A stretch of DNA of 64,000 bases from Hydrocarboniphaga effusa AP103 (GTDB lineage: Bacteria; Pseudomonadota; Gammaproteobacteria; Nevskiales; Nevskiaceae): contig NZ_AKGD01000001.1 of assembly GCF_000271305.1 (NCBI RefSeq), positions 1,984,001 through 2,048,000 on the forward strand. The letters are read 5' to 3'. A program made the position numbers and the translations under genes. This document shows positions 128-48,522 of this stretch, piece by piece. Below the pieces are notes generated by a model. The model was not told the origin of the DNA. It worked only from the letters and a program-made list of their open reading frames with translations, and did no database searches. Every line of letters begins with the position of its first letter. The stretch's first letter is position 1.

Positions 128-162
128 GGATGAAGTCTCGATGAGGCCCCAACAGCCCGTTG

Positions 163-795
163 CTATTGGACGCCGGTGATGTAGGACGCCAGCGCCTGGA
201 TCTCGTCATCGGTGAGCTTGGACGCCACGGCGGCCATCATCTGACCGGTGGGACCGACCTTGCGTTCCCCGGCCCGGTAGGCCGTGAGCTGCTTGGCAGT
301 GTACTTGGCGTGCTGCGAGCCGATACGCGGATAACCAGCGGCCGGGTTGCCCGCGCCCTTGGGGCCATGGCAGCTGGCGCAGGCCGGAATGCCGCGAGCG
401 GCGTCACCGGCGCGGAACAGCGGCTCGGCCACGGCGACCGCGTCCTTGCTGCCGGCGGCGGGCGTGGATTTCTGCTGTGAGAAGTAGGCCGAGATGTCGG
501 CGATGTCGGCATCCGACAGCGGAGCGGCCTGTGCGGTCATCACCGGGTCCTTGCGCTCGCCCGACTTGAAGGCCTTGAGCTGGTGCGCAATGTAGTTGGA
601 ACCCTGGCCGGCCAGCTTGGGCCAATCCGGCATCGCGCTGTTACCGCCGGGTCCATGGCAGGCGACGCAAGCTGCGGCCTTGGTGGCGCCGGCGGTGGCA
701 TCTCCCTGGGTAAAGGGATCTTTGGATCCCGCTTCCTGGGCAGACGCCGAAGCAAATGGGGCGACGAGAACCAGCGCCATCAAAAGGCGTTTCAT
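163..795 (-). CDS. Dihaem cytochrome c4
   Basis: The protein is about 210 residues, with a signal peptide (MKRLLMALVLVAPFASASA) and two similar cytochrome c domains, each with one haem-binding CxxCH: CVACH in the first half and CASCH in the second. Two repeated class I domains of this size are the hallmark of periplasmic cytochrome c4, which passes electrons to terminal oxidases. The frame opens with a GTG at 804, but GGGAG at 805-809 touches that codon and is well spaced from the ATG at 795, so I chose 795. It precedes dsbA on the same strand and diverges from engB. Family identification is firm; the redox partner is inference. Confidence 0.92.
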   Translation of the reverse strand: MKRLLMALVLVAPFASASAQEAGSKDPFTQGDATAGATKAAACVACHGPGGNSAMPDWPKLAGQGSNYIAHQLKAFKSGERKDPVMTAQAAPLSDADIADISAYFSQQKSTPAAGSKDAVAVAEPLFRAGDAARGIPACASCHGPKGAGNPAAGYPRIGSQHAKYTAKQLTAYRAGERKVGPTGQMMAAVASKLTDDEIQALASYITGVQ

Positions 796-952
796 CAACA
801 GCACTCCCAGTAGGCAAACTCGGTAGGCAACGGTGGCGATCGTCCGGCATCTGACGTTGCCGGTGAAATCGCAGGCGGCGCTGGGCGTCGAGTAGCACGA
901 CGCAAGCTAACCGGATAATTTGGCGGCGTAATTCTACACTCCGACTTGCTCA

Positions 953-1588
953 ATGCAGAATCCCTTTTCCCAGGCTCAGTTCCTGCTCTCCTGCGCGCAG
1001 CTCACGCAGCTGCCCGACGACGAGCATCCCGAGGTCGCCTTCGCGGGTCGATCCAACTCCGGCAAATCGAGTGCCCTGAACGCCTTGTGCGGCCGCCATT
1101 CGCTCGCCCGGGTCAGTAAGACGCCCGGGCGTACCCAGCTCATCAACCTGTTCGGGATCAACGACGGCTCGCGTCTGGCCGACCTGCCGGGCTATGGCTA
1201 CGCCTCGGTTCCGAACCCGGTCCGTGCGAGCTGGGGCCGGCTGATCGGCGGCTACGTCGAGAAGCGCAGGAACCTGCGCGGACTGTTCCTGATCATGGAT
1301 TGCCGCCACCCGCTGACCGATTACGACAAGCAGATGCTGGCCTGGACGGTCAGCGCCGGCCGCGACTGCCACGTCCTGCTGACCAAGGCCGACAAGCTCG
1401 GCTACGGGGCGTCCAAGGCCACGCTGCTGGCGACCCGCAAGGGGCTCAAGGAACTCGGCAGCCAGGCGACGATCCAGCTGTTCTCGTCCAGCAGCCACCA
1501 GGGGCTCGACGAGGCGCGTGAACGTTTGCAGTCGATGCTCGACGGAGTGGTGCCGGGTGCGAGCGCGGTCGAAGCACCGGTCGCCTGA
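953..1588 (+). CDS. engB: Ribosome biogenesis GTPase EngB (YihA/YsxC)
   Basis: A 211-residue TRAFAC GTPase. Visible motifs are G1 GRSNSGKSS near residue 32, the KTPGRTQ switch region (G2), DLPGYGYA (G3), TKADK (G4) and a C-terminal SSSS-containing G5 region. EngB assists late assembly of the large ribosomal subunit. No Shine-Dalgarno is visible before the ATG, and a -10-like TACACT at 935-940 would put the transcript start only a few bases upstream, so the mRNA may be nearly leaderless (inference). As in Escherichia coli and Pseudomonas, engB sits beside polA with a small-RNA locus between them; here engB and polA converge. Confidence 0.95.
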   Translation: MQNPFSQAQFLLSCAQLTQLPDDEHPEVAFAGRSNSGKSSALNALCGRHSLARVSKTPGRTQLINLFGINDGSRLADLPGYGYASVPNPVRASWGRLIGGYVEKRRNLRGLFLIMDCRHPLTDYDKQMLAWTVSAGRDCHVLLTKADKLGYGASKATLLATRKGLKELGSQATIQLFSSSSHQGLDEARERLQSMLDGVVPGASAVEAPVA

Positions 1589-1680
1589 GCGCATCAGCGT
1601 ATGGGTTTTGGGATCAAACTGAACAATTGAGGCCCGCATCGGTCAATTGCCGAATATGGCCGGAGATTCAGAAGGATTCT

Positions 1681-1801
1681 GAAAAGAAAATGCCCCGTGA
1701 GCCGGGGGGAGACTCACGGGGCAACAAGCTCCGGCTTGGGGGATGCCGGACCCGCCCAGGGAGTAGAGGCGGGGAGCGTGAAAAGGGAGAGATTCACGCT
1801 C
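1681..1801 (-). ncRNA. Predicted small RNA with four C-rich hairpin loops (sX13/Spot 42-like locus)
   Basis: On the minus strand, three hairpins stand back to back: stem 1801-1793/1782-1774 (9 bp), stem 1773-1768/1756-1751 (6 bp) and stem 1750-1745/1735-1730 (6 bp). After a short linker comes an 11-bp terminator stem (1723-1713/1701-1691) followed by TTTTCTTTTC. The loops read TCTCTCCCTT, TCTACTCCCTG, ATCCCCCAA and TCTCCCCCCGG, so each presents UCCC, complementary to Shine-Dalgarno GGGA/GGAG. A weak promoter (TCTAAG at 1812-1807) places the start at the first stem, giving about 120 nt. Position beside polA matches Spot 42 (spf) in E. coli and ErsA in Pseudomonas; C-rich loops recall sX13 of Xanthomonas. 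Structure is read from the sequence; function is inference. Confidence 0.72.
1691..1723 (-). terminator. Rho-independent terminator of the small RNA (and possibly polA)
   Basis: A perfect 11-bp stem (TGCCCCGTGAG with CTCACGGGGCA) closes an 11-base loop and, on the minus strand, is followed by TTTTCTTTTC at 1690-1681. It ends the predicted small RNA and would also stop polA read-through from the right. Confidence 0.8.
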
Positions 1802-1806
1802 GCAGT

Positions 1807-1835
1807 CTTAGAGGACAGGCCTGATCGAAAGTTCA
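1807..1835 (-). promoter_or_regulatory. Candidate promoter of the small RNA
   Basis: Minus-strand TCTAAG (1812-1807) matches four of six -10 positions. The -35 region 17-18 bases upstream (TGAACT/GTGAAC near 1835) is weak. Its main support is that the predicted start falls on the first base of hairpin 1. Confidence 0.35.
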
Positions 1836-1850
1836 CGCCGGTTTCCCGTT

Positions 1851-1862
1851 TTTTCGCGAAAA
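1851..1862. promoter_or_regulatory. 12-bp perfect palindrome upstream of the small RNA promoter
   Basis: TTTTCGCGAAAA is perfectly symmetric and lies about 50-60 bases upstream of the predicted small RNA start, a usual place for an activator site. No regulator is identified. Confidence 0.3.
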
Positions 1863-1975
1863 CCGTAAGGGGTTTCGCGGCGCTTTCTTTAAATTGCTGA
1901 TTCGCTTGGTTTTCTTATTATTGTGTCGAGCGCCTGTCGAAGCTTCACGACCGACGAACGGTCGTACGAAGACCT

Positions 1976-4789
1976 TCAGCCGGTCGAGCGCGCATGCCCG
2001 TGCGGCTGATGCGCCTCGTCCCAGTTTCCAGCCAGGCCGAAGTCGGCCACCAGCGGAACCGCGAGCGGGGCGATTCGCACCATGTGGTCGGCGATGGTCT
2101 GCGCTTTCTCGCGCAGCAGGGCCTCGGGGCCTTCGAAGACCAGCTCGTCGTGCACCTGCATGATCATGCTGATCCCGGGCGCGTTGGCGTCCAGCCAGGC
2201 CTGCAGGTCGATCATCGCCTTCTTGATCAGGTCGGCCGCCGTGCCCTGCAGCGGGGCGTTGATCGCGGTGCGCTCGGCGTACTGGCGCAGGCCCTGGTTG
2301 CGGGCGTTGATGTTGGGCAGGTACAGCCGACGCCCGAACAGGGTCTCGACGTAGCCGCGCGAGCGCGCCGCCGAACGCGTGTCGTCCATGAACTGCTTGA
2401 CGCCCGGATAGCGGCCGAAGAAGCGCTCGATGTATTCGCCGGCCTCGTTGCGGCCGATGCCGAGCTGGCGCGCGAGTCCGAACGCCGACATGCCGTAGAT
2501 GAGCCCGAAGTTGATCGCCTTGGCGGCGCGGCGCTCGTCGCTGCCGACTTTTTCGAGCGGCAGGCCGAAGACTTCGGCGGCGGTGGCCTGGTGCACGTCG
2601 AGGTTCTGCCGGAACGCCTCCCGCAGGCGCTCGTCACCCGAGAAATGCGCCATCAGCCGCAGCTCGATCTGCGAATAGTCGACCGCGAGCAGCGTATTGC
2701 CGGGTTCGGCGATGAAGGCCTGGCGGATGCGCCGGCCTTCGGCCGTGCGGATCGGAATGTTCTGCAGGTTCGGCTCTTGCGACGACAGCCGGCCGGTGGC
2801 GGCCACCGCCTGGTGATAGCTCGTGTGGATGCGGCCAGTGCGCGGATTGATCGCCGCCGGCAGCTGCTCGGCGTAGGTGCTGCGCAGCTTCTGCATCGCC
2901 CGCCAGTCGAGGATCAGGCGCGGCAGCGGGTGCTGGGCCGCGAGCTGCTCGAGGGTGTCTTCGGCCGTCGACGGATCGCCCTTGGGCGTCTTGGCGAGCA
3001 CCGGCAGCTGGAATTTCTCGTAGAGCAGGGCCTGCAACTGCTTCGGCGAGCCGAGGTTGAATTCGCCCTCGGCGACGACGAAGGCCTGCGCCTGCAGCTC
3101 GTCCATGCGCTGCGCGAGCTCGGCGCTGATCTTGCGCAACAACGGCGCATCGACCTTCACGCCGCGACGCTCGATGCGCGCGAGCACCGGCACCAGCGGC
3201 ATTTCGATTTCGTGGAAGACCTTGGCGAGCACCGGCTCGGCCTCCAGCTTCGGATACAGCGTCTCGTGCAGGCGCAGCGTGATGTCGGCGTCCTCGGCCG
3301 AATACTCGGTGGCCTTGTCGAGCGCGACCTGGTTGAAGGTCAGCTGGTTCTTGCCCTTGCCGGCGACGTCGGCGAACTGGATCGTCTTGTGGCCGAGGTA
3401 CTTGTCGGCCAGGGTATCCATGTCGTGGCGATTGCCGGCCGCATCGAGCACGTAGCTTTCGAGCATGGTGTCGAAGCGCAGGTTGCGCACTTCGATGCCG
3501 TAGCGCGCGAGCACGTTGATGTCGTACTTGCCGTGCTGCGCGAGCTTGGGCTTGCTCTGGTCTTCGAGCAGCGGCTTCACGCGTGCGATGACGTGCTGCA
3601 GCGGCAGCTGCTCGGGCGCGCCGAGATAGTTATGCGCGAGCGGCACGTACCAGCCGCTGCCCGATTCGACCGAGAACGCCAGTCCGACGAGGCCGGCCTG
3701 GTTCGCATCGAGCGCATCGGTTTCGGTGTCGAAGCAGATCAAGCCGGCTCGTTCGAGACAGCCGATCATGCGATCGAGCTCGGCCTCGTCGACCACGCAG
3801 ATGGCGTCGGTCGGCTTGGACACGGTGCCGATGTCGGCCGCGTTCGCGCCGACCGCGGCGAGCGATTCGGGCGCCGCGCTTTCGAGTTCGGCGCCGGCCT
3901 CGGTCGCGGGTCCGGCCGCCGGCTTGCCACCTTCGAGCTCTTCGCGCCAGCGATGGAATTCGAGCTTGCGATACAGCGCGACGAGCTGCTCGACGTCGCG
4001 CTCGCCGGGCACGAGCTCATCGAGCTGCACGGGCAGCTCGACGTCGCAGATGATCGTCGCGAGCCGATGCGAGAGCGGCAGGATGTCGAGCGCCGCGCGC
4101 AGCTTTTCGCCGATCTTGCCGCCGATTTCGCCAGAGCGATCGCGTATCGCGTCGAGCGAGCCGAATTCGGTGAGCCACTTCGCCGCGGTCTTCGGGCCCA
4201 CACCCGGAACGCCCGGAATGTTATCGACGGTGTCGCCGACGAGCGCGAGGTAATCGATGATGCGCTCGGGCGGCACGCCGAACTTCTCGATCACGCCGGC
4301 GCGGTCCATGCGCCTGTTCTTCATCGTGTCGAGCAGGTGCACGTGCTCGTCGACGAGCTGCGCCATGTCCTTGTCGCTGGTGACGATCAGCACCGGCAGG
4401 CCACGCTCGCGGCCCTGTCTGGTCAGCGTGCCGATGACATCGTCGGCTTCCACGCCATCGACGACGAGCAACGGAAAACCGAGCGCCTTGATGACCGCGA
4501 CGACGTCCGGATACTGCGCCGAGAGTTCGGCCGGCGTTTCATCGCGATTGGCCTTGTAGTCGGCGTACAGCTCGTTGCGGAACACCGGGCCGCTCGGATC
4601 GAACACCACGCAGATGCGCTGCGGCTCGTATTCGCGGCACAGGCGCTTGAGCATGTTGACGATGCCGTAGACCGCGCCGGTCGGTTCGCCGCGCGAATTG
4701 CTCAGCGGCGGCAGCGCGTGGAAGGCGCGAAACAGCCAGCTCGAACCGTCGATCAGGATCAACGGATGCTCGGCGGCGGTCTCAGCCAT
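1976..4789 (-). CDS. polA: DNA polymerase I
   Basis: A 937-residue, three-domain Pol I. The 5' nuclease domain fills roughly residues 1-290 (VDGVEADD near 110). The 3'-5' exonuclease domain keeps all three metal motifs: DTETDAL, the Exo II KYD motif and YSAEDAD, so proofreading should be active. The polymerase domain shows motif A (VDYSQIELR), the O-helix (RRAAKAINFGLIYGMS) and motif C (QVHDELVFE). It replaces RNA primers and fills repair gaps. Its ATG overlaps the end of lysA by 8 bases, so the two are probably translationally coupled. A 7-bp inverted repeat at 1947-1965 follows the stop but lacks a T-run. Length is normal for the family. Confidence 0.97.
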   Translation of the reverse strand: MAETAAEHPLILIDGSSWLFRAFHALPPLSNSRGEPTGAVYGIVNMLKRLCREYEPQRICVVFDPSGPVFRNELYADYKANRDETPAELSAQYPDVVAVIKALGFPLLVVDGVEADDVIGTLTRQGRERGLPVLIVTSDKDMAQLVDEHVHLLDTMKNRRMDRAGVIEKFGVPPERIIDYLALVGDTVDNIPGVPGVGPKTAAKWLTEFGSLDAIRDRSGEIGGKIGEKLRAALDILPLSHRLATIICDVELPVQLDELVPGERDVEQLVALYRKLEFHRWREELEGGKPAAGPATEAGAELESAAPESLAAVGANAADIGTVSKPTDAICVVDEAELDRMIGCLERAGLICFDTETDALDANQAGLVGLAFSVESGSGWYVPLAHNYLGAPEQLPLQHVIARVKPLLEDQSKPKLAQHGKYDINVLARYGIEVRNLRFDTMLESYVLDAAGNRHDMDTLADKYLGHKTIQFADVAGKGKNQLTFNQVALDKATEYSAEDADITLRLHETLYPKLEAEPVLAKVFHEIEMPLVPVLARIERRGVKVDAPLLRKISAELAQRMDELQAQAFVVAEGEFNLGSPKQLQALLYEKFQLPVLAKTPKGDPSTAEDTLEQLAAQHPLPRLILDWRAMQKLRSTYAEQLPAAINPRTGRIHTSYHQAVAATGRLSSQEPNLQNIPIRTAEGRRIRQAFIAEPGNTLLAVDYSQIELRLMAHFSGDERLREAFRQNLDVHQATAAEVFGLPLEKVGSDERRAAKAINFGLIYGMSAFGLARQLGIGRNEAGEYIERFFGRYPGVKQFMDDTRSAARSRGYVETLFGRRLYLPNINARNQGLRQYAERTAINAPLQGTAADLIKKAMIDLQAWLDANAPGISMIMQVHDELVFEGPEALLREKAQTIADHMVRIAPLAVPLVADFGLAGNWDEAHQPHGHARSTG

Positions 4790-48157: not shown

Positions 48158-48282
48158 GGCGGCAGGCGGACGGTGCGATCGGGAAACGGGCGCGAATCAT
48201 AACGCGCGTGGCAAAGCCGCCCGCCCACGGCGAGCGCTTCTGCCAGCAGACAGCCGGCGGCCGCAGTCCGTAGAATCCGCGC

Positions 48283-48450
48283 CGCAGGTGCCCGCGGGCC
48301 AGTCGGCTCAAGGGTTAAACGGGAAGTTCGTGCACAAGCGAACGCTGCCCCCGCAACGGTAATTGGGAAGCCTCGGCGACACGCCACTGGATGCAGCGCA
48401 TCCGGGAAGGTGCCGAAGGCCATGCCCATGAGCCCGGAGACCGGCCTGCG
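48283..48450 (+). promoter_or_regulatory. Cobalamin (B12) riboswitch
   Basis: The closing stem P1 is visible as CGCAGG (48283-48288) with CCTGCG (48445-48450). Inside are the conserved core parts: GGTGCCCGC, a GGGAAG box, CTGCCCCCGCAACGGTAATT, the B12 box GCCACTG (48383-48389), a second GGGAAGG and AGCCCGGAGACCGG. It precedes btuB; binding of adenosylcobalamin should switch btuB off. A CAGCCG/CGGCTG hairpin at 48457-48470 may be part of the expression platform. The 125 bases before it show nothing else clear. Confidence 0.95.
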
Positions 48451-48522
48451 ATATGTCAGCCGACCGGCTGGCTCACCCACTATTGCGGCTCGCGGGGACG
48501 CGGGGCCGTAGGAGAAGCATCC

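Follow-up and report, generated by a model that had tools for sequence, protein, structure and literature searches.

What is encoded in the spacer between polA and engB (yihA) of Hydrocarboniphaga effusa AP103, and what would such an element act on? An initial annotation of the 64,000-nucleotide stretch of DNA analyzed here (the window) had described a small RNA on the minus strand with four hairpins, three of them abutting, UCCC in every loop and a full terminator after the last stem. Direct reading and folding of minus-strand positions 1801-1681 confirm this description: four hairpins and a T tract lie in the spacer, hairpins 1, 2 and 3 abut with 0 bases between them, a six-base linker (1729-1724) precedes hairpin 4, UCCC is present in all four loops, and hairpin 4 together with the T tract is called by a terminator scan. 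The features of the locus, with the evidence for each in brackets, are:

953..1588, plus strand: engB (yihA), the neighbour convergent with the sRNA gene
1681..1690, minus strand: terminator tail TTTTCTTTTC (terminator scan, sequence read)
1691..1723, minus strand: hairpin 4, loop UCCCCCC, the stem of the intrinsic terminator (folding, covariation, terminator scan)
1730..1750, minus strand: hairpin 3, loop AUCCCCCAA (folding, covariation)
1751..1773, minus strand: hairpin 2, ACUCCCU in its loop, which is better conserved in the family than any other (folding, covariation)
1774..1801, minus strand: hairpin 1, loop UCUCUCCCUU (folding, arm swapping)
1808..1812, minus strand: -10 element TCTAA, 16 bases past the -35 element; predicted RNA start at about 1801-1803
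1829..1834, minus strand: -35 element GAACTT of a predicted AlgU/sigma-E-type promoter
1976..4789, minus strand: polA, with the sRNA gene downstream on the same strand

The minimum free energy of the fold is -62.7 kcal/mol, against -35.6 kcal/mol (sd 3.3) in shuffles (z -8.3; 0 of 200 shuffles are as good). No ORF of at least 80 aa overlaps 1681-1801; stops interrupt two of the three reading frames of the RNA, and the third stays open for 41 codons. The host lies outside the Xanthomonadaceae, as had been suspected: the window EngB is 82-84% identical to the EngB of three Hydrocarboniphaga genomes, and the family is Nevskiaceae. Hydrocarboniphaga daqingensis is a named isolate that carries the locus (L034). 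Elsewhere in the window, a gene for a cytochrome c (Pfam Cytochrom_C; two CxxCH motifs; 163-804, minus strand) diverges from engB, and a cobalamin riboswitch (RF00174, 105.9 bits) lies at 48269-48463 on the plus strand. The stated contamination of the window genome is 8.28, and on its contig 1 pattern matches recur at an exact 203,532-base offset (for example 15942/219474, 106350/309882 and 70769/274301), so that the assembly seems to contain a long stretch duplicated in direct orientation close to where contig 1 begins.

Conservation and linkage to polA

Conservation was followed with a covariance model, R1, that derives from 21 sequences of the family; RNAalifold returned a consensus for hairpins 2-4 only, and R1 therefore treats hairpin 1 as sequence. 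Of the 57 stretches that flank engB in the family, 52 contain R1 matches, 72 in all, in agreement with the proposal that the spacer holds a conserved sRNA-like gene. The five stretches that lack a match are L081, L096, L099, L106 and L111; three genomes with a negative engB flank (G014, G007 and G018) have a match to the Rfam family anti-hemB (RF02837) adjoining polA elsewhere, and for the negative genomes G073 and G066 the search covered the engB-flanking stretch alone. On folding, 69 of 71 distinct R1 matches form exactly four hairpins; the other two are L101:892, which is cut by a contig end, and L083:641, a weak match of 18 bits that we take as spurious.

The spacer alignment, which had been suggested as a check for compensatory changes, reveals them: across hairpins 2-4, 98.4% of cells are paired (86.7% in shuffles) and 244 cells carry changes on both sides of the stem, versus 63 in shuffles. 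Because MAFFT misaligned hairpin 1, an arm-swap test was applied to it, using the 36 non-redundant copies (<85% identity) that also served for the loop counts. The arms of hairpin 1 pair better with their own partner than with a swapped one in 36/36 copies (-11.2 versus -6.2 kcal/mol), and own arms likewise win in 35/36 copies for hairpin 2 and in 36/36 for hairpin 4; for hairpin 3, whose stem hardly varies, arm swapping gives no support, own arms being better in only 15/36. The loops, for their part, keep their C-rich character, with CUCCC retained in loop 1 of 30/36 and loop 2 of 34/36 copies, and CCCC in loop 3 of 33/36 and loop 4 of 34/36; the C-rich loop 4 is lost in L105 and L098, and the C-rich loop 3 in L128. 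The element is conserved as an RNA whose stems covary and whose loops stay C-rich. Thirteen family loci carry tandem arrays of 2-4 full sRNA copies, the arrays of L126 (genome G050; four copies), L130 (G041; four) and L090 (G008; three) having an AlgU-type box before each copy.

Of 69 family copies, 65 have polA within reach, and every one of these lies downstream of it in the same orientation (the remaining four come from L101, L127 and L133). Fifteen family copies stand close to polA with engB 2-7 kb distant; the sRNA gene follows polA rather than engB. These same 15 copies bear on the idea that the element is a cis-antisense regulator of engB, for which the convergent arrangement in the window would speak; with engB at such distances and polA still near, we find that idea scarcely credible.

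The linkage extends to the class, for which the sample comprised 80 loci, those most like the query EngB among the places listed for 233 genomes with EngB. At E <= 0.1, R1 matches 31 of the 34 stretches that contain polA versus 11 of the 46 that do not, and of 32 R1 matches in polA-containing loci 28 are on the polA strand and 4 on the opposite one. What gives the polA address its interest is that a single RNA model finds a match at nearly all of these polA-containing class loci, mostly with an AlgU-type box. At one class locus (L215, 851-1291, plus strand), a match to the cspA thermoregulator (RF01766, 79.9 bits, cutoff 78) lies slightly upstream of the sRNA.

Promoter motif and candidate sigma factor

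Upstream of hairpin 1 stands the motif GAACTT-N16-TCTAA (1834-1808, minus strand), which ends six bases ahead of the hairpin and resembles the AlgU consensus GAACTT-N16/17-TCtgA given in PMC3819740 and PMC10651043. Over its nine fixed positions, 45 of 69 family copies show 0 mismatches, 14 show 1 and 10 show 2, a count made against the published consensus only, shuffles not being part of the comparison. On an 11-point box score, to which a TCATA variant of the -10 element was added after class sequences had been inspected, 68/69 family copies, which are related by descent, reach at least 9 (shuffles 4.9%) and 59/69 reach at least 10 (shuffles 0.5%); among class copies, 33/43 reach at least 9 (shuffles 6.5%), 24/43 reach at least 10 (shuffles 0.5%) and 10/43 stay below 9. 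Scoring covered 69 of the 72 family matches (L114 and L101:892, at contig ends, and L083:641 were left out) and 43 of the 45 class matches, without the two weakest, L219 and L241; at the L241 locus (also handled as L309) no box is visible.

A predicted promoter of its own bears on the possibility that the element is merely the 3' untranslated end of polA with its terminator, kept for mRNA stability and devoid of a role in trans. The arrangement would allow this, the element lying downstream of polA on the same strand and ending in a terminator, but the promoter motif stands between polA and hairpin 1 in all but one of the scored family copies, the C-rich loops remain constant while the stems change, and the tandem copies each have a box that a terminator would not need; we hold this explanation to be very improbable.

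Which sigma factor would read the motif? No sigma-70 promoter was found in 1560-2000. Across the genome, GAACTT-N15-17-TCTAA occurs once, versus twice for the reversed control, and the TCNRA form 24 times versus 23, with no enrichment; nor is there an AlgU-type box in the 600 bases upstream of rpoE. Because the pattern is not enriched genome-wide and is absent upstream of rpoE, the case for sigma-E is based on the positional conservation of the box and on the comparison with ErsA, a Pseudomonas small RNA of the polA-engB spacer that is discussed below. The box fits the AlgU/sigma-E consensus, and envelope damage would likely switch the sRNA on. The genome encodes RpoE and Hfq, and has eight RpoE-like matches in all, a number that, together with the missing box at rpoE, leaves room for a variant in which the RNA works through its loops in the way we propose below and the promoter is read by a different ECF sigma factor, much as an Acinetobacter sRNA is driven by its own ECF factor SigAb according to PMC12153292. 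Against this variant, which we regard as improbable, a single one of the eight matches clears the equivalog threshold for RpoE, and the box agrees with the AlgU consensus.

Candidate targets and proposed mechanism

The CUCCCU of loops 1 and 2 is complementary to AGGGAG, which bears out the initial suggestion that the loops match G-rich ribosome-binding sites. The genome has 114 occurrences of AGGGAG-N4-10-ATG versus 41 of the reversed pattern, as may be the case for any string resembling a Shine-Dalgarno sequence. From these 114 places, 90 led to 85 distinct ORFs, and removal of 23 under 60 aa left 62, a set that may include ORFs that are not genuine genes. The Pfam families most frequent in this set, four in number, are TonB plug (5), OMP beta-barrel (4), DUF1302 (3) and OmpA (3). 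Counted as proteins, 13 of the 62 belong to outer-membrane families (TonB plug, OMP beta-barrel/OmpA, DUF1302 and DUF3034), the two DUF families being ones that we take to be outer-membrane proteins. In a control of 112 genes, 3-6 fall in the same families, as judged from the 25 commonest families listed (Fisher p 0.0001-0.004); this control, drawn from the window and from loci picked for other reasons, is unmatched to the AGGGAG set in Shine-Dalgarno strength and expression, and retains 112 of 125 gene calls after short and edge calls and the single window gene with AGGGAG were dropped. Starts resembling signal peptides, scored by a home-made rule, occur in 27/62 AGGGAG ORFs versus 29/112 control genes (p 0.019). 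The outer-membrane excess among AGGGAG ORFs is suggestive, though no proof, of the predicted targeting of outer-membrane proteins. In one control locus (L178), rpoD-like sigma-70 domains (1591-2790, minus strand) lie beside a small outer-membrane beta-barrel gene (134-826, plus strand).

Three observations go beyond the initial annotation: the AlgU/sigma-E-type box, the outer-membrane bias of AGGGAG sites and the tandem copies in relatives. With the observed structure and compensatory changes, the C-rich loops, the linkage to polA and the presence of rpoE and hfq genes, the first two suggest an explanation that we consider on balance probable, namely that the four-hairpin sRNA gene beside polA is transcribed by RpoE and represses outer-membrane protein synthesis through CUCCCU loops acting on AGGGAG ribosome-binding sites. 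Envelope damage would free RpoE, which would then transcribe the sRNA; loops 1 and 2, and perhaps 3 and 4, would base-pair with G-rich ribosome-binding sites on mRNAs for outer-membrane proteins and block their translation, relieving the envelope. We infer from sequence both that the RNA exists and that RpoE produces it, as well as the pairing with those messages and the resulting repression. Precedents are the sRNAs ErsA and sX13, described below. Hfq, on which the initial annotation had the regulator depend, may contribute: ErsA needs it, but sX13 acts without it. If this mechanism is true, it offers a testable answer to how non-enteric bacteria curb outer-membrane proteins under envelope stress.

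The target set also admits a broader function. AGGGAG sites stand ahead of sdhC, fixP and a cytochrome c gene, and the regulon may be wider because these genes share the site. The RNA could accordingly be imagined as a general anti-Shine-Dalgarno regulator of metabolism and respiration, with a breadth like that of sX13, for which outer-membrane genes would be a part of the targets and envelope stress one cue; 49 of the 62 AGGGAG ORFs lie outside the counted outer-membrane families, and the targets reported for ErsA in PMC8575079 and PMC5819304 include algC, amrZ and anr. We consider this the less likely function, since the top four Pfam families of the AGGGAG set are all outer-membrane, at a level well above that of the control. 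The hfq gene, which is a target in the case of sX13 and may be one here, has no AGGGAG in its Shine-Dalgarno region, but its leader contains GGGA 26-29 and GGGG 41-44 bases before the ATG.

Relation to known small RNAs

Among curated families, anti-hemB (RF02837) comes closest, and matches 1684..1775 on the minus strand over the whole model (1-81) with 54.2 bits, above the gathering score of 49.5. The neighbours at this locus are polA and engB; hemB is neither adjacent nor antisense to the element. Among relatives searched, 9/41 exceed the RF02837 cutoff. In the class, 124 of 274 genomes match at E <= 0.001 and 14 exceed the cutoff; single weak RF02837 matches mean little without their locus, because 3/14 control genomes match at the same threshold. 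The anti-hemB RNA, also called Burkholderia RNA 7 or ncS04, has the same CUCCCUG hairpin as the window RNA, and differs in that the Rfam model has three hairpins and the window RNA four, and in that the AlgU-type box of the window is absent by eye from L138, the best anti-hemB-scoring class locus. For ncS04, PMC5688073 reports binding to Hfq and no significant change across seven tested conditions; further literature on anti-hemB and ncS04 is found in PMC3521395, and PMC6234868 is also among the sources consulted.

The initial annotation had looked to the Spot 42, ErsA and sX13 models. Neither of the first two finds a match in the spacer at E <= 5. Spot 42, an sRNA of the polA locus known for its part in carbon metabolism (PMC3771888), is absent from the eight Rfam matches at E <= 5. 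ErsA (Pseudomon-1, RF01719) is likewise missing from that list, and has no match in the window genome at E <= 0.001. As described in PMC8575079, ErsA lies in the polA-engB spacer, consists of three stem-loops plus an unstructured U-rich segment and needs Hfq; according to PMC7565897 its expression is sigma-22-dependent and it acts as a repressor of the porin gene oprD. What the window RNA would share with it is the polA-engB address and the conserved, predicted AlgU/sigma-22-type promoter. The only class locus that exceeds the ErsA cutoff, L307, follows polA and has a box GAACTT-N17-TCATA; R1 has no match at the genuine ErsA locus at E <= 1. Pseudomon-1 matches occur in 10 genomes (one over cutoff), with polA upstream on the same strand at 8/10 places, and R1 hits the same place in nine, the exception being the one above cutoff.

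With sX13 of the Xanthomonadaceae the window RNA shares the C-rich loops and the position downstream of polA, but the sX13 model (RF02232) scores 28.5 bits against a cutoff of 50, and membership is rejected on that score. PMC3771888 describes sX13 as lying downstream of polA, with three stem-loops, an unstructured 5' end and Hfq-independent action, its C-rich loops repressing through G-rich sites near starts. R1 hits the two genuine sX13 loci with 32.8 and 34.9 bits, and of the 12 genomes with sX13 matches (two over cutoff) R1 falls at the same place in nine, including both genuine ones; polA is upstream at 6/12 sX13-match places. No AlgU-type box is seen by eye at the genuine loci, L317 and L318. 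Window matches to 6C, ar14 and RydC are all below their own cutoffs.

MicA and RybB are sigma-E sRNAs of enterobacteria. The predicted logic is the same, from an envelope-stress sigma factor through an sRNA to fewer outer-membrane proteins (PMC12153292 cites sigma-E sRNAs with this effect), whereas the window RNA is predicted to pair through hairpin loops, unlike MicA and RybB; in sequence and locus the comparison is that of the Rfam scan alone.

A full-text literature search, covering mainly papers outside subscription journals and few preprints, found no published link of anti-hemB with ErsA or sX13, and no description of a polA-linked four-hairpin RNA in Nevskiaceae. Rfam shows no clan for anti-hemB, sX13 and Pseudomon-1; that matches to models kept apart there fall on the same RNA is itself of interest and says more than single weak matches do. 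As read from its sequence, the window RNA is an anti-hemB-like body with a fourth hairpin, an ErsA-like putative promoter box and the address of ErsA and sX13. The likenesses may reflect a common ancestor or C-rich hairpins that converged at a single address: R1 does not match genuine ErsA, and no AlgU-type box is visible by eye at genuine sX13 or at the best anti-hemB locus. More tentatively, and as something we would call conceivable rather than probable, anti-hemB, sX13 and ErsA may descend from one ancient polA-linked sRNA of the Gammaproteobacteria sensu lato, whose ancestral promoter was of sigma-E type and which outside the enterics would do the work of MicA and RybB through anti-Shine-Dalgarno loops, tandem copies raising the dosage. 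At one locus from the taxonomic order to which the window belongs (genome G029, L308/L319), tandem copies match anti-hemB, sX13, ar14, ar7 and Pseudomon-1, all below cutoff.
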